The notes below the pieces were generated by a model, which saw only the letters and a list, made by a program, of their open reading frames with translations, was not told where the DNA came from and searched no databases. From assembly GCA_002794785.1 (NCBI GenBank), contig NBBA01000006.1:682001-746000 (forward strand): a stretch of 64,000 nt of DNA, read 5' to 3'. This stretch comes from Coniferiporia sulphurascens. Its lineage: Eukaryota > Basidiomycota > Agaricomycetes > Hymenochaetales > Hymenochaetaceae. Positions within the stretch are counted from its first letter, which is position 1. The number at the start of each line of letters is the position of its first letter. Positions 22,399 to 47,510 of the stretch are shown here, piece by piece. A program made the translations under genes and the position numbers.

Positions 22399-22430
22399 GT
22401 GAGTGAAGTGGGTAGTAGGGATAAGGAGCG

Positions 22431-25400
22431 TTAGATGATTTTTTTGAGGGTTTTATACGTTTCTAGGATGTCAGAAGCATGTGAAAGATCTTTTTCGGCT
22501 AGCCATTGATTTTCGGAAGATGGGTATCCGCTCCACTTGACTAGGAAACACCGTCAGTTTCCGGCGCCCTTGTGTGAGACAATTGCCTCGATTTCGTACT
22601 CCTGCTGATCTTCTATCAGGTCAGGTGGTGGTTGAGTGAATGGAGGTCCGTGTGCGTCGGTCTCCGAGTACGCCGAAAGAAGGGAGGCGTGAAAAACGGG
22701 GTGAATGCGCCATGCCTTGGGTAATTTGAGGCGATAATTCAGGGGTGACAGTACCTGGATTATGGGAAATGGTCCCTCCCGTTTAGGTGATAATTTGCGG
22801 GAGCGGTTAGGGAAATGCAAATTGGTGGCTTCTAACCAAACTTTATCTCCGAGTTTGAATGGTTTGAAGCCTCGTGCTCCAAAACGTGCCATATGGGCGC
22901 GGGCTAGATCATGGGCCGCGAGTGCTTCTTTCCTGATTGAGGATAGAAGGCGCAGGCACTGTGAGAGAGATGGGAGATCGGTATCTTCTATCACCGCGGG
23001 AATGGGTATAGGGTTATACCCCAGCATGACGGTGAACGGCGAAGTTTTGGTGACTGAATGGGTCTGGATATTGTGTGAGAACTCCAGGTCCGTGAGTGAG
23101 TCAGCCCAAGAGTGAGGTGAAGTTCCGCAGTAAATGCGCAGATAGGCTTCTACCTCCTGGTTGGCACGTTCCGTTTGTCCATCAGTTTGAGGATGATATG
23201 CTGTTGACAGTTTAGATTTAATGCCGAGGCGTTTGCATAGTGTCTGGAAAACCTGTGATGCGAACTGCGGTCCTCTGTCCGATATGATCCGTTTGGGGAG
23301 TCCGAAGCATCGGTAGACATTGTCATGGTAACACTTTGCTGTTCCGAGTGCGTCAATGGTTTTGTGGCAGGGAATGAGAACAATCCCTTTAGACGAGTCG
23401 TGATCCACGACTACCATAATCGAGTCATATCCATTTGATGCTGGTAAGTCCGTGATGAAATCCATGGACACCGATTGGAATGGAAGCATGGATGCATCCG
23501 CGGGGATTGGGAGCATTGGCGGTTTGGTCGGGTGCATGTTGATTTTCATTTGTTGACACACTGCGCATCCTTTGACGTAATTTCCTACAAAGACGGTTAA
23601 TCCTGGCCACCAATAGTGTTGTCGCACTAGCTGGGAGGTCTTGAATACCCCTGGATGGCCGAACGATGGGAGATCATGGAACATTTGTAGAATTTCCTGT
23701 TTGATTTCCGCATTGTCTGGTATATAGACCCGTTTCTGGTATCGAAGTAGGCCCGAATCCATGGTCCAGTCTTCCAGTGAGAACCTGAATGGTGATGGGA
23801 TCTTTAATGCTCATGCATCCTGAATGGTTTTTGCAAACAAATCCCCTTCTTGGGCATCTCGGATGCGGTTCTGGAGATCCGTGTTAATGGTCCCTATGAA
23901 CAGTGTTTCAGGTAGCATGATACGTTCTTCTAGTGGTTCTTCACCATGATCAGGATGTCTAGATAGTGTGTCGGCGCCGGGGATAGATTTTCCTGGCCTA
24001 TGTGTAATTACGCAATTGAACTGGGACAAAAATAGGTTCCATCGCGATTGTCTCGGGGTTAATCGACGCTCTGATCTGAAGTACAATAGGTTTTTGTGGT
24101 CGCACCAGATCGTGGTTGTATGTGGGTTACCAAGGAGATAGTGTCGCCATGCTTCGAGTCCATGTATTATCCCTAAAAGTTCTCTGTCATAGACTTCATA
24201 GCATTGTTGGGCCGGTCCGAATGTTTCCGAGATATACCCGCATGGTTGCAGGTCACCATTGGAGTTTGCCTGATAGAGTACCGCTCCGGATGCTACTTTG
24301 GATGCGTCTGTTTCGAGGATAAACGGTTTGGTGGGATCTGGTACAAGTAAAGCCGGTTTGTCAAGGAAAAGCATTTTGAGTTCCATAAACGCTTGGTCTC
24401 GTTCAGGTGTCCATTTCCACTGTTCGTTGGTGCGGGTGAGCTCGTTAAGCGGATATACGATATCTGAGAAGCTAGGGATGAACCATCTGTAATAATTACA
24501 GAATCCCATAAAACTTCGAAGCTGTTTGACGGTGTGCGGCATGGGCCAATCGGCGATTCCTGCCAGTTTGACAGGGTCCATGTGTATATTGTCTGGGGTA
24601 ATGATCATGCCCAGAAATTCAACTCATTGTACTCTAAATAAGCATTTTTCCGGTTTGCAATAGAGGTCATTGGCTGCGCATATATCGAGTACGCGGCACG
24701 TGTGCTGGTGAAGTTCCTCCATTGAGTTGGCGGGAATGAGTACATCATCCATGTAGATCAGGGTTCCGTCTTCCAAAATTGTGAAGCGGAATGTATCATC
24801 CATGAAGGCCTGGAACATGGCTGGCGAGTTGCATAGACCGAAGAACATAACTGTTGGTTTGAATAATCCTCATGGAGTTTTAAAAGCGGCCTTCCACTGG
24901 TCCCCATCTTTTATCCGAATATTATTGTAACCGGAGCGGAGGTCTAGTTTCATGAAATATTTGGCTCCTTTGAGTTTGTCCATAAGGTCACTGATCAGCG
25001 GTAGTGGATATGCGTTTTTAATGGTTCCTTCATTAAGTGCCCGATAATCTTGGCATCCACGAAGGCTAGTATCCTTCTTCCTGACAAAGAAGAAAGGAGA
25101 CGCCATTGGTGATTTGGACAGACGAATATATCCTTTTCGTAGGTTTTCGTCTAGGAATTCGTCGAGTGCTGCCAGTTCTTTGGGTGCCAATGGGTAAACT
25201 TTACAATCACGTGGTATGAAGTCCGATTTGAGATCGATAGCGTGATCATAAGGTCTCGAGATTGGGAATCGTTCCGCTGATTTCTTACGGAAAATGTCAA
25301 GATACCGGTGGTATTCAGGGGGAATCATTTGTTCCACAGGTTTTGTTTCTTTAACCTGTTCCTGGGCGAGTGATGTAGCCATGGTGACTTTTGCGATAGC

Positions 25401-25826
25401 GAGAGTGCCTTTTTGCCAATTGATAATCGGATTATGGTTTTTTAACCATAGTAGGCCAAGGATGACATCCTCTTTGCCTAGTGAAGTTACGAGTAATTTT
25501 AGGGGAAGTGATTTCCCTTCAATGCGAACCAATCTCCATATGTATTTGGTTATGGTTCCATGCTCATTGGTGGATCCGTCCGCATTAAGAACCGTAATGG
25601 GACGAGCAAGTGTTCACGTGGGTATGCAATGCTTGATGACGAACTTGGCGTCAACAAATTGGCCTTCGGCGCCAGAATCGATGAGAGCGTTGGTGGGGAC
25701 GGTTTTGTCAAAAACAATTATAGAAATTGGGATCTTCATTGTGGGGAGTGAAGGGTCGGAATTTACAATTGGAGACATGGTAACAGGAAGACTTAACGTC
25801 CGTCTAAGCTTCCTCTTTAAAAACCC
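22431..25826 (-). pseudogene. pol: Gypsy pol: protease, RT, RNase H, integrase, chromodomain (five TGA stops)
   Basis: A single reading frame runs from the gag overlap to TAA at 22,431. In order it has: protease (ALIDSGAEGQFVD, about 25,700); reverse transcriptase ([32 protein letters not shown]); RNase H (LETDASKVASGAVLY, YDRELLGI); integrase zinc finger (H-x-H...CAVCQQ) and core (MDFITDLP, SDRGPQF, E of TDGQTERANQE); a GPF-type module (REGPFPIIQV); and a chromodomain (RCFLVKWSGYPSSENQWL). The frame is broken only by TGA at 25,614-16, 24,870-72, 24,624-26, 23,811-13 and 22,554-56. Relatives usually have arginine at these places, as in the site before GLFKPTVMFFGL and the one before RCFLVKW. 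No frameshifts. It reads as an inactive but recent copy. Confidence 0.95.
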
Positions 25827-27070
25827 TGTTTGTCCAGGATGTCAAAGATTTCGTCCTTCTTTGTCTCGTCGAATTGATTGAGCAGGTTATGGATGCTCGC
25901 AGCGATGTCCTCGGGAGCCTGGTTCATCGGGCCAGGTTCTGGTGTTTCGACAATTGGGAAAGCATTATCGATGGTGCGGACCATGCGCTGTTGACTGTGT
26001 CCTTGCTGGTACTTGGTGCACTCACGTGCGTTGTGGCCTTTCTCTCTACAGGCTAGGCAACGTCCTTCGCACATGCACCTAGCTCGTTCCTCCTCTGACA
26101 AGCGTGGTGGGCGACCTGTAGTGGTTCCCTGAGTCGTGCGTTGATTTGGCTGGTAGGAACGATGCTGCTGGTTATTTCCGAGGTTACGGAAACGATTCTC
26201 TTGTTTAGTGGGGTTTTGTCCCGGGCCGTGGAGGGCCTTGAGTCGTTGGTATATGGCGTCCTGTTTGGAGGCCTCTTGGTACCATTCCTCGATGGTGGTC
26301 GGCATTTTGGAGCTGGCCAGTATGCGTGATAGGAGGCCGTGTTTCAGGCCTTTTTCGTAGATGGGGATGAGGTTGTTGTCCCCCGACATTCCTGCTTGTG
26401 TTACGAGGGATTGGAAACGACTATTGTAGTCGTCCACGGATCCTGTTTGCTGGAGAGTCATGATCTCCTGAGATGCTTTGGCCACGTCATCCATGGTGAT
26501 GAACGTGTTGCGGAAGTCACACTTGAAGTCGCCCCAAGTACCATATCTGACTATGGTATTGAGGGTTTTGCCATTGGTGTCTTTGGTGAAGGCTGATGCT
26601 AGCATTTCACAGTTAATAGCCCAGTCTCCTGCAGTCCCTGTTTGCATGTAGGAGAGGACGAAGTTGACTTTCAACTCATCAGTGGTGTAGATGTGTTGAT
26701 TGATGTGTAGGTATGCTTTGCAACTGGATAGGAAGCGACGGGTGTAGTTGTGGTCCCCATCAAATGTGTTAGGACGAGCGAGGTTAATCTCCTTTGGTGC
26801 TGGTGTTGATGACATGGGTGGTGGTGTCTGGGTTTTCGGGAAAATCGTGCGGTAGTTGGGTACATTCTGGAGGAATGTACTGCTGGCGTCTTCAGCGTCG
26901 TTGGCTTTAAACCACTGGAAATCTCCGTTGGTGTTTTCTAACCATGAGTAGTAGTCGTAGTCGTTCGAGTTGGGTTGCTTTTTCTTAAAGCACTTGAGGT
27001 CGTGGTCCCAGGTTCCTCCGATAAGGGGATAGACGGGCTGCGGGATGGCTAGTTTTGACAGGTTGGGCAA
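25817..27070 (-). CDS. gag: Gypsy Gag with CCHC zinc knuckle
   Basis: 417 residues starting about 60 bp inside the 5' LTR. The N-terminal region has a WDHDLKCFKKK segment. The central capsid-like part is typical of Ty3/gypsy Gag (PNTFDGDHNYTRRFLSSC, GDWAINCE, YNSRFQSLVTQAG, LKHGLLSRIL). One knuckle near residue 345 fits C-x2-C-x4-H-x4-C (CLACREKGHNAREC). The reading frame is intact with no internal stop, unlike pol. It ends at TAA 25,817-25,819 overlapping the pol frame. Confidence 0.93.
   Translation of the reverse strand: MPNLSKLAIPQPVYPLIGGTWDHDLKCFKKKQPNSNDYDYYSWLENTNGDFQWFKANDAEDASSTFLQNVPNYRTIFPKTQTPPPMSSTPAPKEINLARPNTFDGDHNYTRRFLSSCKAYLHINQHIYTTDELKVNFVLSYMQTGTAGDWAINCEMLASAFTKDTNGKTLNTIVRYGTWGDFKCDFRNTFITMDDVAKASQEIMTLQQTGSVDDYNSRFQSLVTQAGMSGDNNLIPIYEKGLKHGLLSRILASSKMPTTIEEWYQEASKQDAIYQRLKALHGPGQNPTKQENRFRNLGNNQQHRSYQPNQRTTQGTTTGRPPRLSEEERARCMCEGRCLACREKGHNARECTKYQQGHSQQRMVRTIDNAFPIVETPEPGPMNQAPEDIAASIHNLLNQFDETKKDEIFDILDKQGF
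25820..25826 (-). promoter_or_regulatory. Candidate -1 ribosomal frameshift heptamer at the gag/pol junction
   Basis: On the minus strand gag ends CAG GGT TTT TAA, so the heptamer G GGT TTT (form X XXY YYZ) lies directly before the stop. A -1 slip gives GGG TTT TTA AAG and enters the pol frame, which stays open apart from TGA codons. The position and phase are right; the downstream stimulatory structure was not assessed. Confidence 0.55.
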
Positions 27071-27130
27071 AGGGTTGGTGCTTGGACGTTGGATATGTCA
27101 GCAAAAAAAATTTGGGAAAGCTTGTGCTAG

Positions 27131-32823: not shown

Positions 32824-33088
32824 TGGATGTTGACAATTGGCCAAGGTGAACTGATCTATCATTGGTGGAGTGATAAGTTCCCACCCAATATGGAAGTGGG
32901 TTACAACACTCACCCTCGCTTCATGTGCAGATGTTGCTTGATGCAACTGTGTATCGCACAGACAACAATCATAGATACAGAGCTTATTTCTCTTGAAGTC
33001 GAATAAGATGATGTAGTGATCTTAATTTTCATATAGATTTTATGGTAGAGATAATATTATTCAGTCTTTACAACCCTGTATCAGAAAC

Positions 33089-33390
33089 ATCAGGAAAAGC
33101 CCAAATGCTATATAGTGTGGCAGGATAACTATATAGCACTATATAGCATTAAATAGGACTATTTTGTAGCTTTTGAGATAATATAGCATATATAGCACTA
33201 TATAGCACTATATATTGGCCAATAGTGCTATATAGCAGTATATAGTACTATATACTGCTCAAGTAGTACTATATAGAAGTACATAGCACTATATTACCTT
33301 CTGATAAGTATTATGGCTATTTTCGGGTATTTTGAGTATTTCAGATTATTTGAACTATTTTTTCCAGTCCCAAATCCTCAAAGGATTGGA
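33089..33390 (+). repeat. CTATATAG-rich repeat, isolated copy
   Basis: It begins catcaggaaaagcccaaatgctatatag and continues through many CTATATAG/ACTATATAGT palindromes to ...tttttccagtcccaaatcctcaaaggattg. It matches the reverse complement of 43,253-43,558 over about 300 bp, so it is an additional terminal-repeat copy of the gene-carrying unit described below. Confidence 0.8.
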
Positions 33391-33839
33391 GTAGAAGCCA
33401 AATTCATCACACCCTCCTTTCAAGGCCACACCAAAAGGTGTGCTCAACTGCGATGTACAAGCTGACTGATGGTACCCCACCTCTTTTCGCTTCAGTAATA
33501 ATATCTCATTTTTCCTGTTATTTCCATACCATCCAAGTTAAGGGAAAGCAGTACAATATTCCAATGAGATAAGTAATTACACAACAGAATCTGAGTGCAT
33601 GTAGTAAAAGTGGGAGGATGGAGATAAAGAGACGGGAGGCGTACTTCAAGGCAAGGAGACAGTTTGAGATAGAAAGATAAAAGTATGAAACAGAACGGAC
33701 ATAGCAGCCAGGACAGCACAGCAGAAACACATAGACTAAAGGAGAGAAAGCAGAGGGGCCGGTCGTGCATGTAGTTAGAGTAGAGATGACATGAATTTGA
33801 GTGATGGTAGTTGAAAAGGACTTGCATGTCTGATATCCA

Positions 33840-33909
33840 TCACAGGGGTGCACCTTGTAATCGCATTTGCACCTTTGCATGATGCTGGCGATTTTTAAGG
33901 TGCACCTCG
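33840..33909 (-). pseudogene. SNF5-like C-terminal motif, distal part
   Basis: Minus strand reads IIFEVHLKNRQHHAKVQMRLQG right up to the left end of the inserted unit. Fungal SNF5/SFH1-type proteins, from memory, have YTPGPGE-T-L-x-NFEVHLKNRQHR near the C-terminus. The first half of that motif is at 43,559-43,585, on the other side of the insert. This is the continuation of the broken gene at 43,559-44,310. Confidence 0.6.
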
Positions 33910-33919
33910 AAGATTATGA

Positions 33920-34250
33920 CATCAGGAAAAACCCAAAATGCTATATAGTACTATATAACACTATATAATTAAAATAGGGCCCATAGGTAAAATAGGTTAA
34001 TTCAGCCCTTCTCAGTCATATATAGTACTATATAGTACTATATAGTAGGCTCCCTTACTATATAGCACTATATAATGCTATATAGCCCCCTTTCTCCACT
34101 ATTTTGTACTATTTTCCAACTATTTTTCACTATTTTTCACTATATTGTGTCTACTTTCAACTATTTTCTCACTATTTACAGCTATCTTCTATGATTTTCT
34201 GGCTATTTCTGACTATATCTGACTATTTCCCACTATATCTGACTGATAAT
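33920..34250 (+). repeat. Left end of the unit, CTATATAG-rich then ACTATTTT-rich
   Basis: The outer roughly 30 bases match the other two copies. Further inward the sequence is a run of tatatagtactatata palindromes and then repeated actatttt/actatttc units (34,098-34,240). It is more diverged from the right end than the isolated copy at 33,089. Confidence 0.7.
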
Positions 34251-35083
34251 CTCCCTGATGCTGGTCATATGGTTGATCACATTCTTTGTCTGGTCCTTTC
34301 AGAGAAAATATGTTCTATTTAGTTATAATATACAGACATCCAACTCTTCAAGTCAGGTGTATGTAAGTAATACTAAAGAGAAGCATAAAAGCTAGCAAAT
34401 CAGTGGTCAGTGGGACCAAAACATCCTAAGCAACTATAAAAAGAAACATTCTATGGGCATGGTAGCAGGATCTGTCACTAAAGTCTTGTTGATGAGAGCA
34501 TAACTAAATCAGCTATAAAGAGATGTTCAACAGATTTGTGAAACATTACTTACCTACATAAGTAGACCTTCTAGATGTTCAACTGGTATGGTGGATGAAT
34601 CCAAGAGTCAGTCAAAATAAATGGAAAGAATTACATCATAGAATGTTTAAAAATGTGATATGCACTGGTGACAATGGTAAGGCTATTTGGGAAAGCAATG
34701 CCAAAGTCAAATGAGGGACAGGCCAGATATAGCTTTGATGATGTACTCCCAAGGACATGCAAACCAACAAGCATGATAAGCATTGGGTCCTTCTAGGAGG
34801 AAGAAGTAATGGAGCAGAAATCTGAAATTAAGAGATGATGCATTGCAAGCATGTTATGTGGGAGTGAATATGGAGGGGAGAAAGTAGTTTTATCTATCAA
34901 TCTCCTTCTCCACTTCCCAAGACATATTTTTATGATCTAGGATGACCAAAATCCCAAATGTGGAATATTTGCAAATGGGATGATGGTGGTAAAAGGAAAA
35001 GAAGCAGAAGACCCTGAGTCCAATTTATAGAAGTTTGTCACATGTTATCACATGACAGGCAAATACCTACAAACAGGGACATA
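34251..35083. other. No recognisable gene
   Basis: AT-rich sequence, short frames only, no motif seen on either strand. Confidence 0.5.
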
Positions 35084-36240
35084 TTAGGAACTAGTTCTCA
35101 CACATTGCATAAGCCTGCCTGGTTTGTTTACTACTTGAGTGTATTGTTGTAAGCACTTATTTGGCAGTGCCTCCATTTTGCCATCTCCATCCTCTGTCCT
35201 TTTGCTATAGCCACTTTCTTGGCCTCTAAGTGCCTCTGCCCAGCCTTGCTCCCATTTGCTGTTTGCTTCACTGGTATGCTGTGCCATGACAAGCATTCAG
35301 TTCTTGTCAATTGCACCTTTGTGGTTTAGCATTGCTTTTTTTGTGACATTAAGTAGGCCATCACTAAATAGTCCCAGCCCTGCATCACCAAATACTGTAG
35401 TCAGTCCACCTGTATGATAGAGTCCCACTCCAGGGCACTCACCCTTATTCCCAACATTTTTTGCCACCACTGTGTTAAGCCTACTGATTAGGTAAGGCTT
35501 AATAAGCGATCGATGAGGATCGACCAAGTAAGATGAGGTAGAGACGAGACAATAGTTGAGCAAGGGTTTCCCCAAGGACTAGTAGGCTGGCAGACTGGTG
35601 ACTGATGACTTAATATCCCATAGAGGAGATAGTGAACGAGTAGGCTCTATTGAATGAAGAGCACAAGCTTAGGGCTTGATGCTCTGAAAGCGAGTCCTTA
35701 TATACATGCATAGAATACTATAGAACAAGGTGGAAGGCTGACTGAGCGAACAATAAGGATCAGTCAGCATGGAAAGAGATAGAAACTGGTAGAAGAGTCT
35801 GACTGATCATGAGGCTAGGATCAGTCAGCATGCAAGGTAGCTTAGTCAGTGGAGATGACTAATGCTGATAGAGGCGATGAGTTAAAGGAAATTGTAACAC
35901 ACTGCTTCTGCTGATGCATCAGCAGCTTGCTGTTGCTGCTGCTCAAGCAACTTAGGGCAAGGTCACCAGCTTTGAGTCTGTGTGTCACTGCATTGGCAAT
36001 AGCTTTCTCCTCATAATAGTTGTCAATCTGGATCCTTCCATTTGTTAGGAATGTATAAGGCTATAGCTGCAACATACTAATACACCACATGCACCAATAA
36101 GCATTTTCCCACCATGTAGCTTAAAGGCACTATGTGCTGTGACCAGAGTTACACTTTGTGTGCAGAGCTGTCCACCAAGTTTTCCTTGTTCAATGAAATA
36201 GTCTTTTTCAGGCTGGGTCACATTAAGCTTAAAAGCCAGT
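35084..36240 (-). pseudogene. Unidentified coding fragment split by a solo LTR
   Basis: Minus-strand coding-like pieces: QPEKDYFIEQGKLGGQ and LVTAHSAFKLHGGKMLIG (about 36,215-36,090), KLLEQQQQQAADASAEAVV (to 35,900), then VAKNVGNKGECPGVGLYHTGG and GLGLFSDGLL (35,472 to about 35,300), and a Lys/Glu-rich tail to 35,084. Skipping the LTR and one CACTG copy joins AEAVV to AKNVGNK in frame. I do not recognise the protein. Confidence 0.4.
35473..35899 (-). mobile_element. Solo LTR, 427 bp, target duplication CACTG
   Basis: The plus strand begins tgttaagcctactgatt and ends ggaaattgtaaca; flanks are CACTG at 35,468-35,472 and 35,900-35,904. The termini match gypsy family 1 (TGTTACAATTTCCTTTA... on the minus strand), but the body is shorter and different, so it is a related second LTR family. 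It contains a TATATAAGG box around 35,700. Inserted inside the gene-fragment unit, so younger than it. Confidence 0.93.
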
Positions 36241-36299
36241 AAATTATGGTGGAAGTAGTACAAGGAATCCAAGACCAGGCCCATCCATGCACGGACCAC

Positions 36300-37975
36300 C
36301 AGCAAAAATAATAATCCTTCTCTTCCCTGCCCACAGCCACAACCCCCAACAACAACAACACACGCTTGCACAGACCTTGCCTCCAGGTGTCCTGGGCCCG
36401 ATCATGTCCCGGCACTGGCAGCAGCAGCTGCTCAAGTATGATGTTTGTGTGCCCATTTCTTTCTTTGTGCTGTGTTTGTGTTCGACTCATATGCGTCCTT
36501 GTCTGTGGCTTGCATCAGATGATCCGTGCCTCCAGATCTCTGTTCCACCAAGCACGACAGAGTGCGCTGGCCGCTCGGCCAACGATCAAGTCCGCTATCA
36601 CAATAATCGATCCAAACCACGTAAAGCCGCCTCCTGACACCAAGGAGGAGGGCTTGGGGCCTGAGAACAATAATGGGAATGGAGAGGAGCATACTCCGGA
36701 AAGTCACCCTTCTTCAACCACAGCGCCTGTTGCACCTGCGCCATGGTCGTCAACCATGCATGCTCCGGAAAACTCCTGGTCTTCGCTGGATATGGGTGGG
36801 ATTAGCCTTAAGAACATCCCATGCAGTTCAGGCCTTTCGTCCTTCACCTTCTTTCAGAACCTTTACCTTAATCACGATTCACGATGCCCTCCAAACGATC
36901 CCTCCTGAAGTTGCGCGGCTCAGGAAACTGGAGCTTCTCGACCTTTCTGGAAACACATTGCGGGTTATTCCGCCTGAGCTTGGCATGCTAATGAATTTGA
37001 AAGAGCTCTATCTGTTTGACAACCATCTTGTTACACTTCTGTATGAACTAGGAACTCTGCACCAGCTTCGGACCATTGGTATTGAAGGCAAGCCGCTCTG
37101 CCCTGACATGAAAGAGATTGTGCAGAGGGACGGGTCACTGGTGCTCATCGCATTCCTCAAGAATTCAGCACCGCCACCAAAACCAACACCAAAACCGCCA
37201 CTGCCACAAATGTGGCAAATGCTTCAGACAGAGGCAGAGCGAAAGGCACAGGAGGCCAACCCTAATGTCAAAACTGTCACTGCTCTTTGTTACAATATTC
37301 TGTGTGAGAGATGCGTGATGGAGAGGCTGTATGGGTATATGCCGAAGAAAGCACTTGAGTGGTCATATCGCAAGGAACTCATCACAGATGAAATCTGGAG
37401 CTACAACTCGGACTTCATATGTTTACAAGAAATAGGTGTGGCGCAATATGGGGACTTCTTCTTGCATCACCTTTCAGAATGTGGTTATGAAGGCATGTAC
37501 CGGCACAAGGCGAGGGCAAATGTGATGGAGGATTTGCAATGGAGATTGGTAGATGGATGTGCTATATTCTATAAGTCAGCCAAGTGCGTAACCTGCCCTT
37601 TTTGCGGTAGCCGGTTTTAACGAGCATGTCGTTTCCAGATACCAACTCGTAAAGAAGCAGCTCATTGAGTCCCACCATGTCGCAATGCAGCATTCAGGCT
37701 TCAAGAAAACAGACAACGTGTTCAATCATGTACTCCAGCGGGATGACATCGCTATTATCGGTCTCTTTGAAAGTAAGGCGACTGGATTGCATTTCATCAT
37801 CACCAATGTGCACATATTCTGGAACACACAGTTCTGCGATGTCAAGCTTGTGCAGGTAGCGCTGCTTATTGATGAGATTGAAAAGAGTGCGGCACGCTTT
37901 GCACGCTATCTGCCACGCCCTCCTCCACTGCCGGGTGACTCAGCTGCACATGTACAAAGGGATTGACAAGAAAGG
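36300..37975 (+). pseudogene. CCR4-type deadenylase fragment (LRR plus start of nuclease domain)
   Basis: CCR4 is the catalytic deadenylase of the CCR4-NOT complex. The piece starts within an N-terminal exon (HWQQQLLK, ending about 36,435), followed by a GT...AG intron (36,436-36,518). Next comes the conserved stretch to PTIKSAITIIDPN and WSSLDMGGISLKNI. A frame change near 36,885 leads to the leucine-rich repeats (ALQTIPPEVARLRKLELLD, LKELYLFDNHLVTL, LRTIGIEGKPL). The EEP nuclease domain begins with LCYNILCERC...LYGY, catalytic-site FICLQEI and RLVDGCAIFYK. An intron (37,581-37,636, GTGCGT...CAG) leads to QLVKKQLIE, GFKKTDNVFNHVL and NVHIFWNTQFCDVKLVQ. It stops after PRPPPLPG. The GDFNS and SDH catalytic segments are missing, so it is a 3'-truncated captured fragment. 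Confidence 0.88.
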
Positions 37976-38339
37976 TCAAGTGGCATAAGGAATGCTCTAA
38001 TCAGCATGCATCCCTTCCTACACAGTACAATAAAAATGGATGCACCCCATAATCAATGGCAGCAAGTACCTCATTAGCTCACTTGGCCGGAAGTTGAGTT
38101 GCATATGGTGGTAAAAGGTGTGTTTTTGAGGTTTGTGCTTACATACCCATGCAGCTATCCAACCATTAAGTCACATGTAGTGGTATTCATCAATGCTGAT
38201 GCTGCAAACATAATTGAGCCTGTAAATCAGGAGGAAATTAGTCAAGTGAGGTCATTCAGGATGTTGTCATTTACTTAATGTCACAACTGATGGGTCTTGG
38301 TTACCTAATGGTAGGCCGTATCGAGGCCGGAGCAGGCGA
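37976..38339. other. No recognisable gene
   Basis: This short spacer follows the abrupt end of the CCR4 fragment. Frames are short and carry no motif. Confidence 0.4.
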
Positions 38340-39200
38340 GGTCGACACCGGACTCTGTGTCTTCACTAACTCTTCAGTGTGCTGAGACGAGTGAGTTGCT
38401 CGAAAACATCGGACTCTGTCGTACATGCTAAACCATTTGCAGTTGATACAAGTGCAGCAGCTGGAGCCGGAGCAGGGGCGAGAGGAGGGGGAGGAGCTGA
38501 GCAGGTGGAGGGGGAGGAGCTGGGGCAGGCGGAGGGGTAGGGGCTACTGGAGGTGCTTGGACTAGTGCTGGAGCAGTGGGAGGAGTAGGTGCCAAGAGCT
38601 GCATAGAACTGGGGCGATTGGTCCATGCATCATCGTCAAACCCACTAACAACCGGTACAGCGGAACTGGCTCTCGGAGGACATGTAAGGGTACTCATCGG
38701 GGAGGCAACAAGTGTCACAGCTGGGCTACCATGGCGATTGATTTGTTCTGATGCAGTTGTGACGAAAAGGAGATCAACAGGTGCTGGAGGCGTGTTCTTG
38801 GACGAGCCACTCGCAGTGCTACCCCGGCATCAGAAAGCATACAGCGCCTGAATAGCCTGCCCAGGGCGTGGTGTGGCATGATTCTGGGGACTCAGCCCAA
38901 GCATGTCCTGGATCTGCTCCGGTGAGTAGTCCTTCGATCCACGGAACATGTACGCCTTTGTACACACTGTGTAGCCAAGCTTGTGTACTTGGGTATGTAA
39001 TCACATTAGAATTCAATTGTGAGCAAAAAGCGAATGAATGACACACGTACCATTGTCCCAAATGTAATAAGTCTGACAAGTGTGTTTGGGGGTAACATCC
39101 CAACAGCCGCAGCAAGCGGACTGCGGAGCACCGTGAGGTACTCCCTCCTCATCGAGACATGTACCAGCAACTAGGCGGGACCTGTGCAGGGCACACAAGT
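38340..39200 (-). pseudogene. Unidentified captured fragment with proline-rich stretch
   Basis: On the minus strand a Cys-containing segment ([34 protein letters not shown]; 39,180-39,050) is followed by an intron-like gap. Then come [20 protein letters not shown] and [20 protein letters not shown] (38,960-38,850), a TGA, NTPPAPVDLLFVTT, SGFDDDAWTNRPSS, and a long Pro/Ala run to 38,450. It is coding-like, opposite in orientation to the CCR4 piece, and not assigned to a family. Confidence 0.4.
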
Positions 39201-39847
39201 GTGTACTTGATTGTCATGTACTTTGGGAGCAACTCCGCAGGGAGGTTTGTGTTGGAGACATCCCTGTAGTGGGGTGGGAATGTGTTTCACTGTAGGTAAA
39301 ATGGGCAGATCCATAGCTTACCATGGATGTCGATTTGGCTGTGCAGGACAGAGGGGGGAAGGAGTATGCTGTTGGCACATATGTGGTGCATGTTGACGAG
39401 GTCTGTGGCCACAGGAATTGAGTAACTTATTAGGAAAAAATAATAAAAATTCACTTGCTTTCACCTGGGCTTGAACCCAGGACTTGGACCTCCTACCGCA
39501 GCAGCTGGGGGAAAACCATAAAAAACATAAGATAAAATAAAGAAAAATGGGAATTGGGGCAGCATTTTCATACCTACTTGATACCATATGTGCTGCAGTT
39601 AAGCATAGGTACACCACATTACACAGTATCTGCTGCCAATCCCAGTAGCAGATGCATAAGGTTCGGAAACCTGAAAGCACCTGACTCTATGCGAGCCTCA
39701 ATACGGTTTGGGAACTGCTCAACCACTGAGCCATTCAGGCCATGAAATTTCTTCAAAATCCATCCCCTATGACTACCTCACTGACCTAATTTCCATTTAC
39801 AGCCATGCTTTCTAATTAACATTACAGGGTTTAGGTTATAGACTCAA
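39201..39847. other. No recognisable gene
   Basis: Mostly AT-rich spacer. Minus-strand matches to polymerase III promoter-like boxes (TGGCTCAGTGGTTGAG near 39,735; GGGTTCAAGCCC near 39,475) are about 260 bp apart, too far for a tRNA gene. Confidence 0.4.
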
Positions 39848-40425
39848 ATGAAAGTCAATTGCCCACAGGAGATTGACCAGCTCATGGACATGCTCAAGAG
39901 CGCCAGCACTATGCTTGCCGAGCTGTGCACCTCCTCGCTCTCCCCAAAGCAATACTACGAATTGTGTACATGCGTGGTCTCCCACTGTTCCATCTCCCGA
40001 TGCCGCAGCACTGACGTGTGTCCTCCTCCAATGCAGACATGGCCGTGTTCGATGCCCTCCAGCACCTCACTAATTACCTCTATGATGTGCACATGCAGGG
40101 GAAGCACCACCTTGCCGACCTCTATGAGCTCGTTCAATATGCAGGCAACATTGTCCCACGTCTGTACCTTATGATCACTGTCGGTGCCGTCTACATGTCT
40201 ATCCCCAATGCACCCATCAAGGAGATCATGGAGGACATGATGGAGATGTTGCGTGGCATACAGCACCCTGCCCATGGTCTCTTCCTCCACCACTACCTCA
40301 GTGGACAGACCCGGGATAACCTCCCTGTAGGCAACAATGAGGGGTACGTGTCCTACCCCCGCTCTGATCCCTGACCTCATTTCCACTTTCACAGCCCTGT
40401 CGGAAACCTGGCAGACTCGATCACA
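39848..40425 (+). pseudogene. VPS35-type retromer subunit fragment, part 1
   Basis: VPS35 is the large subunit of retromer, which sorts cargo from endosomes. Exon 39,848-39,965 encodes the conserved start of the protein (QEIDQLMDMLKSASTMLAEL, then SLSPKQYYEL). A 71-nt intron (39,966-40,036) joins in frame to [19 protein letters not shown], then [20 protein letters not shown], the highly conserved VPS35 signature, and [16 protein letters not shown] second intron of 51 nt (40,344-40,394) joins to GPVGNLADSIT. The coding stops at GATCACA (40,419-40,425) where foreign sequence starts. Exon/intron structure is kept, so this is genomic, not cDNA, capture. Confidence 0.88.
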
Positions 40426-40552
40426 CACCAGGTGTGCCAATGCCGACTGGTGCTGATGGTGACAATGGTGATGATGGCGACGAGAAAGGGGGAAAGGGAG
40501 ACAAAAAGCAAAAGAACAGCTACGGACATCTCATCAAGGGCATTCCAGGTGC
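40426..40552 (+). pseudogene. MED19/Rox3-like mediator subunit fragment
   Basis: Directly after the VPS35 break the frame reads PGVPMPTGADGDNGDDGDEK, a Lys-rich stretch, then KNSYGHLIKGIPG. The last motif is what I recall as the MED19 signature in fungi (SY-x-HLIKDIPGK). It ends with a GT (GGTGCTTTG) that could be a donor site. It is only about 42 codons, so the assignment rests on one motif. Confidence 0.55.
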
Positions 40553-40639
40553 TTTGCTCATTTGATTCTTGGTCATGCAATGCAATTTACACTTTTGCAA
40601 ATCAGGTAAACACTCGGCAAAAGCAAATGGTGAGCAGCA

Positions 40640-41011
40640 CTTGCTTCGGGTTTGCAGTTTGTCAAGGTGGATACCGAGGACCTCACCACTCATGCTGTCC
40701 AAATTTAGTTGTACTACAATTCTCATCCTGCCACATTGTCATCCCACCTACCCGGGGTGCGCGGACATGCCTGTGACCATATATCAGGCCTTGCTACACG
40801 CCGTTTTAAAGATATGGTCTACCCCCCCCATGTCCGCAACTCAATGTTGTATTGCTTGTTGCTTTCATTTGGGGCATTCTCGACAACCTACCATCGGCAT
40901 CTACTACCTCAACCAGGCACCTGCACAATCTTGTGTTGTTTGGCAAGTTCATTGTTGACATTGTCTCGGCTGTGGTTGTGGAGCTGGATGAGCTCATCTC
41001 AGACACCCGTC
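40640..41011 (+). pseudogene. Unidentified coding-like stretch between MED19 and MON2 pieces
   Basis: Frames here contain VDTEDLTTHAVQ, then VYPPHVRNSMLYCLLLSFG, and FGKFIVDIVSAVVVELDELI, the last ending at a GATGAGCTC that is repeated 25 bp later where the MON2 frame begins. The short repeat marks a probable junction. I cannot name the source gene. Confidence 0.35.
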
Positions 41012-41479
41012 GGATGAGCTCTTTGGAGATGTCCTCCAGGCCTATCAGGGTCTTGCAAACGTTGCTGGCATGCTTGGCCTTGCAACACTATGGGACGCAT
41101 TCCTTACGAGTCTTGCAAAGTTTGCAATTACCATGTGTGTCGTTCAGAGTATTGATGCGTACGTTGAATCGCCGACACCGCAGTCGTCCAGTGCATTGCA
41201 AGACGGCTTTAATGTCTTTGCGGGCGGCGCAGCCGCTACACAGCCACCGGGACTGTCTGAGTGTAACATGGTGTGCTTGAAAGTATTTGTCTCAAGTGCG
41301 CTGTTCCTGGCAGGCAGTCTTGGCCCCACATGGTACCATGTGCTTGAAGCCCTACAAAATGCAGAGTATGTACTCACCACAAAGGGCCAGAAGGCTTTGG
41401 GAGCAAATTGTTCATTGGCATTGGGTGTTGGTATGGGTTCCAGTCCTGTGAGTAGGTCTGTTTCAGCACTGGCAGGCTT
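41012..41479 (+). pseudogene. MON2-type (Sec7/BIG-related) fragment
   Basis: The frame reads SDELFGDVLQAYQGLANVAG, then MLGLATLWDAFLTSLAKFAI. Further on come LSECNMVCLKVFVSSALFLA and SLGPTWYHVLEALQNAEYVL. From memory, the order DAFLTSLxKxA, then NxxCxxxLxxxAxxxGxxLGxSWxxVLxxLQ, is characteristic of MON2, a Golgi/endosome trafficking protein. It ends near 41,470, just before a second GATCACA where VPS35 resumes. Only a short internal segment of the large parent protein is present. Confidence 0.75.
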
Positions 41480-41622
41480 GATCACATTTCAGCTCACCAA
41501 CTTTATAGAAATTGACAAGCTCTGGGTACGGCTGCGGCACCAAGGACATTCCCACAACTGCGAGAAGCGTGAGATGGAGCAATGCAAGCCACATATCCTC
41601 ATCAGTACCAACCTTGTATCCA
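41480..41622 (+). pseudogene. VPS35 fragment, part 2
   Basis: After GATCACA (41,480-41,486) the frame reads TFQLTNFIEIDKLWVRLRHQ, GHSHNCEKREMEQ and HILISTNLV, continuing exactly where part 1 stopped (LADSIT). The two parts are separated by the MED19/unknown/MON2 block, flanked by the 7-bp direct repeat GATCACA. It ends abruptly at about 41,620, where SNF5 sequence starts. Confidence 0.85.
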
Positions 41623-43110
41623 GGAGCAGCTGAGCAACTACAAGATTCACACTGCAACTTTTGCGGACCCCTCAATGAGTAACCCAGAAGGTACACTGAT
41701 GTGTGGCAGATTGCAGGATGCCGAAGCGATGTGGTGGACAACCTGGAGACAATGGTTACACATGCTATTGCAAAGTGTGCAGGAGCTGCCGGCCACGCAA
41801 AGAGGCGCTGCAAGTGCAACCCAGAAGCGAGCATTGTTGTGGAAAAGGCTCCTGTCGATGAGTCCTCATCAATGAATGTCAAGATGTTCAAAGTGAACAT
41901 GGACATGATACGTGAGGAGATGAGGATGGTTATCAAGGTGGGCTAACTCTATTATGCGTTGTGCTCTGTAACTACACAATGCTTACTAGTTGATATTATC
42001 AGCTTGATATAACTGTGGTCAAGATGAAGTTAGACGACCGCTTTAAGTGGGATATTGAAAATGAAGGCCCGACGCCAGAACAGTTTGTGGAGATTTATAG
42101 CAGTGATCTTGGCCTCGCTGGAGACTTTAGGTGAGTGGCACAGGCACAGAACGCCAGCAGCATAAAATCCTAATTGAGTTTACAAGACAGCCATCGCACA
42201 CTCAATACGAGAGCAAGCTGATGCCTACCAGAAGTCACTCTTCTTGGTTGGACATCCATCCGATGGCTCGGTGGTGCAAGATTTGCGCATGTCATTCTTG
42301 CCATCGATCGCCCCTGTGTCTCGGTCTGTCGATCAAACGCAGCTGTTCCAGCCGATCATCGATTATCTGAGTGACGGAGAACTTGATAGGCTCGATAAAG
42401 AACGTGAAAAGGAAGCTAATAAATGATGGAAACATAGTATGTGTGGATGTCGCAGAATTGCTCTACCTGATCGTGAACCACTCAAGATGCATCGTACTCC
42501 GGCCATTGGGTTCCTTGAGATCGATCTGTCTATGCTTGCGCTTGCCGCAGCGGCGTCTCTTACTATCGCAAATATGGTTGCTTTCAAAGAACGGCACAGC
42601 GATAATTCAGCTTGTCTTGAGCACATTGGTCGCACCCACAGTTCCGTTGTCAAAGATTCCGAAGGCGAAAGGCTCTTTCAAGGCACTGAAGTATTCTTCG
42701 TCCTTGTTGACTGCTCATGCAAATGTCACCATGCCGGCGCCATCGACTGTGGCAGATGTGGCAACATACAAGCCCCGTTGGAGGGCGATCTTCCGTTACT
42801 AGTGTCATTGACATTGCCTACAGCTGCGTTGGATTCAAAAGCAGCTAAGGTTGTTTCGGCCCATCAGCAAAGAGAGCTTGAGAAAGAGGCCAAGGAGTGT
42901 GAGTATGCAGATGGGCAGTGCACAAATATAATCAATGGTGTCTGGCATTGTTCCAATTGTGGCTATCCCGACAGTATCACTATCGGTGGACGAAAGGGTC
43001 TGCTGGGGAATAAGTCTCAGTGCTATGCATGTGTTATGGATCTTATATTTCCCTTGTGCTTGACAGAATTCTGCCAATATTTTCTTAGGCAAATTTTGGC
43101 ATTGCCATCA
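41614..43110 (+). pseudogene. SNF5/SFH1-type chromatin remodelling subunit fragment
   Basis: SNF5 (SMARCB1) is a core subunit of SWI/SNF or RSC. The piece starts with IQEQLSNYKIHTATFADP, part of the first SNF5 repeat. A frame change follows, then DMIREEMRMVIK, an intron (41,937-41,999), and the second repeat LDITVVKMKLDDRFKWDIEN and PEQFVEIYSSDLGLAGDF. An intron at 42,131-42,186 leads to TAIAHSIREQADAYQKSLFL and VGHPSDGSVVQDL. Farther on are RRIALPDREP, HRTPAIGF, SLTIANMVA and a zinc-finger start WHCSNCGYPDS-ITIGGRKG (42,945-43,020). It breaks off at about 43,100. Several one-base shifts show decay. Confidence 0.78.
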
Positions 43111-43252
43111 TTGTCCGCATCTGGTGGAGTATAGTATATTGGATAATTAAATTGAGTAATATAAACACATGTTCAACTATTATCTAGCCATCCAATAGGT
43201 GTGCCATGGGCAGCTAAGCAACATTGAGCACTATCCATAGTGCAGTATCATA

Positions 43253-43558
43253 ATACTTCAATCCTTTGGGGATTTGGGACTGAAAAAATAGTTCAAATAA
43301 TCTGAAATACTCAAAATACTCAAAAATAGCCATAATACCTATCAGAAGGTAGTATAGTGGTATATACTCCTTTATAGTATTACTTGAGCAGTATATAGTA
43401 CTATATACTGCTATATAGCACTTTTGGCCAGTATATAGTGCTATATAGTGCTATATATGCTAGATTATCTCAAAGATACAAAAATAGTACTATTTAATGC
43501 TATATAATGCTATATAGTTATCCTGCCAGACTATATAGCATTTGGGCTTTTCCTGATG
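43253..43558 (-). repeat. Right end of the unit, inverted CTATATAG-rich repeat
   Basis: About 300 bp, reverse complement of 33,089-33,390 with small differences. It ends ...gcatttgggcttttcctgatg at 43,558, immediately next to the split SNF5 motif on the minus strand. Confidence 0.8.
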
Positions 43559-44310
43559 GAGCAACTCACCAGGACCTGGAGTATATACCTGTGCCAACGC
43601 CGATTTCTAAACGGTCAACACACCATTCACAGCAACCGGCAGCAGGTGAAGATAAACACACCTTTCCAGGACAATCAAGGCACTTCACATGCCACTCTGA
43701 TGGGAAGCCATTAGCCACCCTGCACAGGATTATATCGAAGTGATCTTCGGGATAGTGGGATTGCGTTTCAGCGATTACACCTTCATGCCACTGGGGCCGC
43801 TGCGGTTCCGTGAGAACACCATACAATGCGTGATATAATTATATATATACTCACACTAAGGTGGGGAGGTGGTGTTTCCTGGACGGGCATTGCTTCAAGT
43901 GCAGGAGTAGCGGATGCTATGGATGCCGACAGGGGTTCGGACCGTGCCGACTCTCTGGGTGTTGGCACTGATGCTGAGGCCTCTGCCTGCACTGGTAACT
44001 CAGCTGCCGCCCTGGCCAGGATAGTAGCAGAAGATGCAGGTCTGCTTCCACTGGTGCCATTACCTTGCAGCACCATCTGTCCAAGCGGACGCTCTGATGC
44101 ACCTGAACTGATGCTAGAGGCTGGCGACAGTGGATGTTCAAGAAGCTCAAATGCCTCCTATGCTGGCGATGGTGGCCATGTCTTCTTCGCTGCCTTGATC
44201 TCAACCCACACCTCATGCTTCAGCACAGCTGGCGAAGATGTGCCGTCTGTAGGGGAGACAGGGGCCGGAGCTGCATCCTGCTGTAAATTGAGTGCACGCA
44301 TTGCTGCAGC
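43559..44310 (-). pseudogene. SNF5-like C-terminal gene fragment, minus strand, broken on both sides
   Basis: Starting at the LINE insertion (44,311) the frame reads AAAMRALNLQQDAAPAPVSP and HEVWVEIKAAKKTWPPSPA, a TAG, and an Ala/Ser/Pro-rich linker. A GTGAGT intron near 43,850 follows, then RPQWHEGVIAETQSHYPED, HFDIILCRVANGFPSEWHV and KCLDCPGK. A further GT...CAG intron (about 43,605-43,670) leads to YTPGPGE at the border of the inserted unit. The remaining motif half is at 33,840-33,909. The KCLDCPGKLYTPGPGE signature is what I recall from fungal SNF5/SFH1 C-termini. Upstream coding resumes at 47,522 (RGQWEQFRS). Confidence 0.6.
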
Positions 44311-45166
44311 TTTTTTTATTTTTTATTTTTATTATTATTCCTGCAGTATTATATAATTACAAGCTGCCCCCCCTTCGGGGGGGCCCTAACTACATAACAA
44401 TGGAGGCGCCTGTCATTGTGCATCACACAAAACTGGGCGGGGGCTCTGCTCCCTGAGGGGTGCTGAAGTGTGAAGAGCCCCTATTGGGTAAGAAAGACAC
44501 AAGAGGGAGGAATACATATCGCTATGAACAAACCAAGCAGGCGAGGGCAGGTCAAGTAAGAAGCTTAGAATTGAGAAAGGGGTGGTGAGAGCACTGGCTG
44601 GGATGTATTCATGGGAATTCGAAAGACAGGTGCTAATCAGAGGGAAAAGGAGGGAGCATACCTGAGAGCTCCAAGAAGGCCAGGTCTGAGTCCTGGGTTC
44701 AGAGTCCAAGCATACAATGCATGTAATCCCTTAGGAGGTCCAAGTCCATGTTCTCATCAGTTGGGTGGCCATCAAGATCCATCACAGCGAAAGCTAGCCG
44801 GATAGCGCCTGCGGTGCGGTCGGAGAGGCGGTCAAGATGCCCTGTTAGTTTAAGCCAATGGTGCAGCACTTGGAGGCGGTGTTCATCAGACCACTCTGAG
44901 TGGTGGACTGGGAGAGGGTCCCGAGGTGGCCATACACGTCATATCCATGAGTGGAAGGAACTGCAGCCACCAAGGATGTGGGCAGTCAACTGTGTGGGCC
45001 ATGGTGGGTGGTTGTGCCACCTGCAATGCGAGATCAGGCCGTGCCTGCACCGGTAGGCTGAGTCGAACCTCAGCCAGTAACCCCCATAGGGACCAGTGCG
45101 GCAGAGGACCTGGGTGACTGCAGACAGCTCACTGTGGGGATGGTTGACTGAATGCATGAGCAGCTT

Positions 45167-47510
45167 TCAAGGTCGGTGAGAGGGGAGGCCATGTACTGCC
45201 AAGTATTTGTCAGCAGTTGAGGCTAGTGGGCGTGCGAGTGAGAGTGTCCACCGGTCCATGAGGGTGTGGATGGCGACTTCTTTTAGCATGGAGGTGGAGG
45301 GCTTTAGGTCAGATGGTGGGAGCTCCATAGCCAGTTTCGCTTCCATGTCAGCCCATTCATTTCTGGGGATGTCTGAGTGGCCAGGACACCATACAAAATG
45401 AATGGTGAGCTGGGGGTACAAGTCCAGCAGGGTCTCCACACCCGCTTTCCATATGTGGAGGAGGTGGGCGCCAGGGGTGGCACTCCAGGTATGGAAAAGG
45501 TGGAGAGCAGTCAGCGAATCGGACAAGAAGAAAATGTCTGATGTGACACACAGTTGTGCTGGGAGGCGGCGCGCTACCCAGCCCAGGGCCGTTGCGAGCG
45601 AGAACTCCTCAGTGTCCATGGCTGTAGCGCAGGTGGGGGACTCCAGTCGACATGACTGGAGGCGGGTGGGGCCTAGCATTGCACAGATGGCAGAGCCTGA
45701 CTTGTTGTTGATGCAAGAGCCATCTGTGAATACCTGGATGTGTGGGGTGGAGCCCGGGGCCTGTGCAGCACTCACAAATTGCTTGTGGGTGCTGGTGCTG
45801 ACCGGGGTGACAGGGGTGGTAAAGTGGACTCAGCCGTTTGTGAAGGCCAGGGGGTCTGTCCATGGGGGATGCATGTATGCAGGGACCTGTTGAACCCGGG
45901 GGGCTCAGACCTGCAGAGAAAGTGAAAAAGGTCTGTTAGCTACATTTTTAAATAATTTGCAGCCAATAGAGTGGGGGGTGCGCCAGAGGCGCAGAGAATG
46001 GCTAGTCTTTATATACTCGAGGTAAAAAGAAAGAGGAGGAATGGAGCAAAGAAAATTTGTGGAATGGGGGGAGGCGCCTTTGAAGACGCCCAATATCCAG
46101 CAACAGGCTGTGTTTTGCACAGCCTGGAGGCGGTTTACCAAGGTTTTTTGGCGGCAGCCATGGTACCAAACTGGCATGCCCCAGGAAAGGACAGAGCAGA
46201 CACAGGAGGTGTACAGGCAGCGGAGGAGGAGGGCCGAGATACTGCGTTGGGTGTTGCCCAGAATGCGGAGGGTGGCGAGGGTAGAGAGCCCCTTGGAGTG
46301 CATGCACTCGATGTGGGGCTTGAAAGAGAGGCCTGGATCCCACCAAATCCCCAACCATTGCAGTGGGATTGAACGCCTCGACAGCTGACAAGTACCTCGC
46401 TGTCAATGGGGCCCCCTCCCGCTGACCTCGAAAGCTGTTAACGCAATTGGTCGACCACCCACATAAAGAACTCTTGGCGGTCACCCAGATCCTCTGCCGT
46501 GCCGGTCCCTACGGGGGCTACTGGCTGAGCTTTGACTCAGTCTACCTGATGCAGGCATGGTCTGATCTCGCACTGCAGATGGCACAACCACCCCCCCTGG
46601 CCCGCTCAATCCACTGCCCACATCCTGGGCGGCTGCCATACTTTCTGGCCTTGGATCTGTAAGGTCTGGCCCCCCTGTGACCCTCTTCCGACCCACCACA
46701 CCGAGTGGGCCGACGAAAACTGCCTTCAGGCTCTGTGTCACTGGCTTAAGCTGACAGGACACATGAACCGCCTCTCCAACCACACCTCTGCCACCATCCA
46801 CTTGGCCTTCGCCATGATGGAGTTGGAGGGACACCCGACCGATGAAGATATGGACTTGGACCTCCTCCGGGATTACATGAGTTGTATGCTTGGACCCCAT
46901 TCCCAGGACCCGGACCCAGCTCTCTTGGAGCTTTCAGGTGCACTTCCCCCCCTTTCCTCCACTCTGTGAATGCCTTTCGGACTCCCCCGCATATGTCCCA
47001 GCCAGCGCTCTCGCCCTCCCTTTCCAATTCTAAGTTACCCCCATTACCTGCCCTCATCTGCTTGGTTTTGTCGTAGCAATATGTATTCCTCTCCCTTTAC
47101 CATTGTCCTCGTTTAAATAGGGGCCCTTCCCACCTTGGCACCCTTCGGGGAGCAGGGTCCCCACCCAGTTTCGTGCATTGTGCGATGACGGGCACCTCTG
47201 TTGTTATGTAGTTAGGGCCCCCCCTTCGGGGGAGCAGCTTGTAATTATGTAATACTGCAGGAATAATAATAATAAAAATAATAAAAATAATAAAAAGTGG
47301 GATTGAGGGGCAGATCAGGGTGTTAGGATCAACCTGGACCCTGGCAGTGTCCCAGCCATCATAGCCAGTGTGTTGCCAAGGGGGGTGGAAGTGGAGGCAC
47401 TCCATCTTGGTGGCTTCGATGTTGAGACCGATGGTGCTGAAGAGGGTGTCGAGTTGGCCAGAATTAAGAGTGCCCTTGCAGGACTCAAACAATGTGTGTA
47501 CCTTCCTCAG
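45167..47510 (-). pseudogene. LINE-A reverse transcriptase thumb and RNase H
   Basis: The RT part reads LFSTIGLNIEATKMECLHFH (47,440-47,380) and DPNTLICPSIPL. Skipping LINE-B and one 10-bp duplication, it runs on in frame to QWLGIWWDPGLSFKPHI, then AVQNTACCWILGVFKG (46,360-45,905). After stops, the RNase H domain occupies 45,775-45,167 with the acidic set visible: VFTDGS, TEEFSLA, LSDSLTALH, and the late WCPGHSDIPRNEWADMEAKL. The RNase H frame is open over its length; the RT is truncated and the whole is inactive. Confidence 0.85.
46373..47296 (+). mobile_element. Nested 5'-truncated LINE (LINE-B), 10-11 bp target duplication
   Basis: The 924-bp plus-strand insertion is flanked by (a)gtgggattga at 46,362-46,372 and 47,296-47,306. 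It begins within the RNase H end (TADKYLAVNGAPS, parallel to TADKYLAVHGLPS in LINE-A). It continues with ELLAVTQILCRAGPYGGYW and the shared 3' UTR, and ends in an aataataataaaaataataaaaa tail. It is head-to-head relative to LINE-A and younger than it. Confidence 0.95.

Follow-up and report, generated by a model that had tools for sequence, protein, structure and literature searches.

A stretch of contig C6 of Coniferiporia sulphurascens (the window, 64,000 nucleotides, C6:682001-746000 in a genome of 39.3 Mb and 31 contigs, here designated C1, C2 and so on) contains a transposable element, E2, that carries a mosaic of host gene pieces. We hold it probable, at roughly 0.86, that E2 is a non-autonomous PlavakaB element mobilized in trans, that its ten gene fragments were gained serially and that they were captured in the course of repair. 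A first-pass annotation of this DNA had proposed a single mobile unit with captured pieces of host genes, and the proposal is borne out by paired ends, a target site duplication (TSD), empty sites, a second copy and the parent genes. The element occupies C6:715920-725558; the limits that had been suggested for it, 33920 and 43558 in the numbering of the window (used below for positions without a contig name), are exact to the base. Its ends read CATCAGGAAAA and TTTTCCTGATG (in longer form, CATCAGGAAAAACCC and GGGCTTTTCCTGATG), each side being bordered by GA.

33920..43558, plus strand: E2 (9639 bp), a complete PlavakaB-type element, non-autonomous and with a mosaic of host gene pieces (ends, empty sites, 2-bp TSD and second copy)
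33918..33919, no strand: TSD GA, left copy
43559..43560, no strand: TSD GA, right copy
33920..34084, plus strand: left terminal region, containing CTATATAG repeats (genomic copies; agrees with the inverted right tip in 123 of 178 columns)
34260..35130, plus strand: left subterminal module common to many family members (86-99% identity over the listed pieces)
43254..43558, minus strand: right terminal region

The inverted ends reported earlier are present in the tips of E2, whose last 28-29 bases are near-identical (one substitution and one 1-base indel) and which diverge further in. The strong 277-bp inverted pair, 33088-33364 and 43282-43558 at 92%, is instead the right end of a sister element, E1, facing the right end of E2, and it was rejected as E2's own pair of terminal inverted repeats (TIRs) because one of its arms is part of E1. 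A genome-wide search for the left-end pattern, tolerating up to three mismatches, gave 20 occurrences, compared with none for a reversed-pattern control. A genome-wide check for paired copies of the ends had been recommended, and we examined 15 end pairs, a number that excludes unpaired ends such as those at C11:453311, C9:3147, C6:814734, C9:97843, C6:787697 and C8:1518378. Tips were recognisable on both sides in 14 pairs, one right tip being interrupted, and identical 2-bp duplications flanked 13 of the 15. Not all candidates were scored in some searches (40 of 157, 40 of 100 and 40 of 863), so that copy counts are lower bounds and absences in those searches are weak. Scans of 33000-44500 for tRNAs and Rfam families gave no matches.

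PlavakaB, a lineage of cut-and-paste DNA transposons in the CMCT clade, is defined by the termini CATCA..TGATG and by TSDs of 2 or 3 bp (Kojima 2025, PMC12730594). E2 runs from CATCAGG to CCTGATG, and its GA/GA duplication is confirmed by the empty site described below. A search of C6:715920-725558 with PF18759, the Plavaka transposase, gave no match, whereas all six of the longer elements with related ends (17-24 kb, on C12, C20, C16, C1, C25 and C7) matched it; a search for relatives with a transposase had been proposed in the first-pass annotation. The left ends of these six are 80-83% identical to that of E2 (C7 in pieces, at 81 and 95%), their right ends 73-82%, and their TSDs are 2 bp long; in the C20 element a 667-amino-acid frame matches PF18759 at E 3.4e-51, and the transposase of the family is nearest to that of Phellopilus nigrolimitatus (68%). 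Because the ends and TSD are of PlavakaB type and the transposase is found only in relatives, we regard E2 as a non-autonomous PlavakaB derivative, one that would be moved in trans by the transposase of the longer elements. It carries host gene fragments with unlinked parents (ten loci on eight contigs) between TIRs with a TSD, and two insertions, with TSDs GA and AT, hold most of the mosaic in common; on sequence grounds, then, E2 is a Pack-type Plavaka. Separately, the best PF18759 match of the genome, C6:676473-677507, lies about 4.5 kb beyond the left edge of the window.

The same features decide between the two classes that had been left open, TIR element and Helitron, in favour of the former. 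Helitrons have neither TSDs nor TIRs. A rolling-circle element that captured genes by read-through at its 3′ end could be envisaged, given that Helitrons take up gene fragments in fungi (PMC4289320) and that E2 starts A|TC once two bases are trimmed. However, the 2-bp duplication in 13 of 15 pairs, the inverted CATCA..TGATG ends and the Plavaka transposase match in the longer relatives led us to reject a Helitron as extremely improbable, although Rep/helicase was not searched for. Mutator elements have TSDs of 9-11 bp. The comparison with Pack-MULEs, Mutator-type elements with captured fragments, holds for the overall plan, in which inverted ends enclose gene fragments, but the TSD of 2 bp and the terminal motif, together with the transposase match in relatives, are those of Plavaka, and we give membership of Mutator next to no credence.

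E2 sits within E1, a second member of the same family, of which two parts are recognised:

33088..33919, minus strand: right end and last part of E1, broken by E2 (right terminal region 33088-33393 and captured SNF5 3′ part)
43559..44310, minus strand: E1 beyond E2 (captured SNF5 3′ part; elements on C10, C3 and C9 and the SNF5 parent match 752 bp at 91-94%)

The motif YTPGPGE/FEVHLKNRQH, which had been described as split by the insertion, does lie in one reading frame broken by E2, the flanks reading YTPGPGELLIIFEVHLKNRQH when joined, but it belongs to the captured SNF5 copy of E1. We therefore conclude that E2 jumped into its sister element, the SNF5 cargo of which is reversed, and rejected the alternative that it split a resident host gene. 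In other family members 33919 directly abuts 43559, with GA single, and a 79-base probe found the empty site in seven of eight sequences at 94-96%: in all six family members of the ~10 kb type and in the SNF5 parent on C14, which reads YTPGPGESLINFEVHLKNRQH at this point. The probe did not match the eighth sequence, which is part of contig C23. E1 can be aligned with the parent stretch C14:235379-239973 as far as 33392, just where the right terminal region of E1 starts. A segmental duplication or an assembly chimera that chanced to adjoin Plavaka ends might be suspected in a region so rich in repeats, but the exact empty sites, the TSD and a second copy some 1.27 Mb away, with several identical joins, make this hardly credible.

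The left end of E1 was not found, the element being traceable for 752 bp past E2, to 44310. Next to it, at 45167-46933 on the minus strand, are RNase H/reverse transcriptase-like frames, which from their motifs we take to be those of a long interspersed nuclear element (LINE); this LINE may have cut E1 at 44310, where the E1 sequence ends beside an AT-rich tail. At C23:1211-1922 there is another right end of this family (94%), and the E2 target site was not found beside it.

About 6.3 kb of E2 matches ten parent loci, spread over eight contigs, where at least five genes had been counted before. The pieces are as follows, with the parent locus and the identity to it.

35905..36316, plus strand: piece that E2 has in common with the C3 element and the second copy; SEC23-locus-like over its last ~49 bp
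36317..37941, plus strand: CCR4 fragment, sense, apparent intron kept (C3:148745-150351, 90%)
37957..38076, minus strand: GH17-like gene fragment, antisense (C4:1733.9k, 86%)
38079..38320, minus strand: glutaminase-type locus fragment, antisense to the neighbouring frame (C1:4843008-4843249, 81%; more copies on C1)
38322..38800, minus strand: SLA1 fragment, antisense (C17:221713-222172, 82%; PF03983)
38806..39376, minus strand: SEC23 fragment, antisense (C10:783094-783689, 79%; PF04811)
39414..39750, plus strand: module of ~340 bp, also in the transposase-bearing C20 element
39863..40422, plus strand: VPS35 fragment, first part, sense (C1:1197.3-1200.3k, 91%; PF03635)
40422..40622, plus strand: MED19-like fragment, sense, apparent intron kept (C4:2283219-2283419, 90%; label unconfirmed)
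40616..41009, plus strand: THO2 fragment, sense (C5:1103946-1104344, 86%)
41009..41469, plus strand: MON2 fragment, sense (C6:428453-428913, 89%)
41472..41618, plus strand: VPS35 fragment, continuation, sense (81%)
41617..43136, plus strand: SNF5 fragment, sense, apparent intron kept (C14:236879-238473, 83%)

The identity of SLA1, SEC23 and SNF5 is given by Pfam matches at the parent locus (PF03983, PF04811 and PF04855), that of THO2 and MON2 by PF16134 and PF16206 in a neighbouring frame of the parent locus, and that of VPS35 by PF03635 matches within E2 itself. CCR4 was recognised from a structure-database match to a CCR4-NOT subunit 6 chain (E 1.2e-52), and the glutaminase-type label comes from PF16335 in an adjacent frame of the parent locus; among the SLA1 matches listed, none was above 68%. 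Four of the five names proposed in the first pass (CCR4, VPS35, MON2 and SNF5) thus stand, and the fifth, MED19, found no support from Pfam, PDB or named homologues. SLA1, SEC23, THO2, the glutaminase-type locus and a gene that, from its motifs, is presumably GH17-like (no support in Pfam or PDB) are additional. The five genes named earlier do lie in plus orientation, whereas four of the other fragments are antisense.

Retained introns and abrupt cuts had also been noted. Alignment to the intact parents, another of the recommended checks, succeeded for all ten loci at 79-91% identity, and the alignments of the SNF5, CCR4 and MED19-like fragments are unbroken across intron-like frame switches of the parents; nine abrupt joins were seen. 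The introns of these three fragments therefore appear to have been retained and, since the alignments are continuous over them, the gene pieces were probably captured from DNA. Cargo of the hAT transduplication type known from Ptr and P. fijiensis, which is intron-less and transcript-derived, does not fit the same apparent introns.

A second copy of the mosaic (copy2) was found at C6:1988237-1996408, some 1.27 Mb from E2; it is 8172 bp long and has the TSD AT. It contains CCR4, part of SLA1 and the SLA1|SEC23, VPS35|MED19-like, MED19-like|THO2 and MON2|VPS35 joins, and it is without 37820-38579, a gap most simply explained by deletion, since the sequence on either side still matches the parents. 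Other elements carry smaller parts of the same content. Those on C9, C10, C12, C2 and C21 have in common a fragment of C2:2998448-2999817, a HECT-domain locus (91% to C9), together with VPS35; SNF5 is present in the elements on C9, C10, C3, C15 and C30 and at C6:961k, and not in those on C12, C2 and C21; and CCR4 is common to the C3 element, copy2 and E2. Of the GH17-like piece the C3 element still has the initial ~25 bp, and it matches a probe for the CCR4|GH17-like join over most of the probe's length. With probes for SLA1, SEC23, MED19-like, THO2 and MON2, copy2 was the sole match among 13 other sequences, several of these sequences being partial stretches. A tree of 13 left ends gave the grouping (C3,(E2,copy2)), with support of 98/98 and 100/100, in agreement with the shared cargo content.

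These nested subsets suggest that the fragments were gained stepwise. Judged from the nested content, an element with the HECT-gene and VPS35 fragments would have come first, SNF5 would have been gained next and CCR4 after SNF5; the GH17-like/glutaminase-locus/SLA1/SEC23 run would have followed, as would the MED19-like/THO2/MON2 run inside the VPS35 fragment. The VPS35 fragment of E2 is indeed broken by the latter run and is unbroken at that point in sister copies, such as those on C9 and C10, and 13 bases of the VPS35 parent (L047 3112-3124) are found on both sides of the run, including at 40410-40422. A comparable trace is seen at 36270-36318, where 49 bp match the SEC23 locus (L082 842-890, 82%) near the stretch matched by 38806-39376; an earlier SEC23 fragment may have received the CCR4-SLA1 run, in the way that VPS35 received the MED19-like run. 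In three elements (C12:725171-733642, C2:675379-684234 and C21:256254-266.4k) VPS35 is nearly whole.

At the nine joins examined there is homology of zero to a few base pairs, or filler of up to ~15 nucleotides, and short pieces from separate contigs abut with no space for transposon ends between them. It seems probable, from the form of these joins, that the capture step was repair by template switching: a break inside the element would be mended with several unlinked genes as successive templates, producing one run, and the joins between templates would need little or no homology. Mechanisms suggested for the Pack-TIRs of animals include gap filling and fork switching (PMC8277862). The fragments might alternatively have been gathered by nested or end-bypass transposition, in which an element jumps beside a gene and then uses a distant end. 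Nesting does occur, as E2 in E1 demonstrates, and the long contiguous stretches of SNF5 and VPS35 could have arisen in this way, so that end bypass or nesting is possible for those two. The SLA1, SEC23, MED19-like, THO2 and MON2 pieces, however, are 0.2-0.6 kb long and come from different contigs with a few bases at most between them, and as an account of the whole mosaic we consider such transposition unlikely.

Capture probably extends beyond E2, since the C20 and C16 elements, both with a transposase match, hold host-like pieces (C15:576168, C13:936731 and C20:638409/C11:1497233, 89-91%); for the long C7, C25 and C12 elements no host-like pieces were present among the 40 of 863 candidates scored. 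One of the host-like pieces in the C20 element, a transposase-bearing Plavaka at C20:583747-600955, is GH5-like (PF00150, below cut-off), and the same element contains an inserted repeat of ~560 bp (L046:6625-7185) with more than 30 genomic matches among those listed, at about 82-94%.

The cargo is decaying. If the parents are taken to preserve the older state, the 727 mismatches in E2 divide into 478 C-to-T or G-to-A changes, 155 in the reverse direction and 94 others (alignments shorter than 90 bp were dropped from this and the frame comparison). The C-to-T or G-to-A changes affect 338 of 1080 parent CpG positions but 140 of 2385 other C/G positions, the values for copy2 being 193 of 977 and 111 of 2092. 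A frameshift or stop is present in six of the eight genes compared in E2 (CCR4, SNF5, VPS35, SLA1, SEC23 and THO2), and the MON2 and MED19-like fragments have neither; the frames were chosen mechanically, some perhaps not being true exons, and the GH17-like and glutaminase-locus pieces were left out. About half of the changed codons are synonymous and half nonsynonymous. If the captured genes were functional passengers under selection, this balance, the two fragments intact in frame and the nearly whole VPS35 of several elements might be expected. The codon balance is not, in our view, a sign of selection on the element, given that the parent is changing as well and that changes in a constrained parent add synonymous differences. 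The disabled frames, the truncation of most fragments at one or both ends and the CpG decay also stand against functional passengers, which we consider very improbable. Rather, decay and CpG mutation indicate that the cargo is probably silenced, presumably via CpG methylation, instead of being made up of working genes.

Several observations weigh against the account given here of E2 as a stepwise, repair-built PlavakaB derivative. Only the 123 of 178 aligned columns noted above are identical between E2's own tips, 24 being gaps; the C3 element has no matching TSD, and the right tip of the C21 element is broken by another insertion. The tips of the C20 element are only 82-83% similar to those of E2 (over 127 and 326 bp), which falls short of proof of mobilization in trans. 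Copy2 is without 37820-38579 and without 26 bp spanning THO2|MON2, so that the joins concerned are unconfirmed there, and the GH17-like|glutaminase-locus and glutaminase-locus|SLA1 joins occur in E2 alone. Half of the inner branches of the left-end tree (five of ten) are unresolved, and the labels MED19 and GH17 are unconfirmed. Nine joins are too few for proof of a repair mechanism, and both transposition and capture are deduced from sequence.

Later insertions and unrelated elements are also present in the window:

35473..35899, plus strand: dispersed repeat of ~427 bp, resembling a solo long terminal repeat (LTR) (TGTTA...TAACA, CACTG on flanks), apparently a later insertion into E2 and absent from copy2

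This repeat has more than 30 genomic matches among those listed and looks like a solo LTR that landed in E2 afterwards. Long gag-pol-like frames at 21084-27097 (minus strand) and 58744-63186 (plus strand) are, we assume from their motifs, LTR retrotransposons of Ty3 type and Ty1/copia type, respectively.

Plant Pack-TYPE elements retain introns. In plants, Pack-type capture is well known (PMC8903248), and in animals it has been described for Pack-TIRs (PMC8277862); like E2, the elements of both groups are TIR elements with fragments copied from unlinked genes, but E2 differs in superfamily and kingdom, and has ten sources and a series of intermediate copies. The fungal TIR capture cases in the literature consulted involve one or two genes per element (PMC3538342, PMC6710886). 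These hAT and Tc1 transduplications also combine a DNA transposon with a housekeeping gene, decayed in one case, but carry an intron-less histone H3 transcript copy (hAT) or two coding regions (Tc1/Mariner), in contrast with the many genomic fragments, with apparent introns, of E2. The Helitrons of Pleurotus ostreatus (PMC4289320) are likewise from a basidiomycete and have captured gene fragments, but they are rolling-circle elements, whereas E2 is a TIR element with a TSD. Plavaka itself is known with one type of cargo gene, TET/JBP (PMC12730594); E2 shares the CATCA..TGATG termini and 2-bp TSD of PlavakaB, and its longer relatives match PF18759, while E2 itself has no transposase match and has some ten unrelated gene fragments (TET/JBP was not specifically searched for in E2). 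We found no report of a multi-gene Pack-type Plavaka in the literature searched, which held few subscription papers.

The E2 family represents multi-gene capture by Plavaka in a basidiomycete, with an unusually clear ladder of intermediates. A broader reading, to which we give somewhat less than even odds, is that mushroom-forming fungi have in their Plavaka elements a standing system of gene shuffling, in which multi-gene mosaics are built stepwise via break repair and then spread; as part of it, the MED19-like/THO2/MON2 run in VPS35 and the unbroken VPS35 of the sister copies would be a before-and-after record of one event. With parents, intermediates and end products in one assembled genome, the routes of capture by TIR elements become testable on before and after states, and gap filling, fork switching and end bypass are the routes to be separated.

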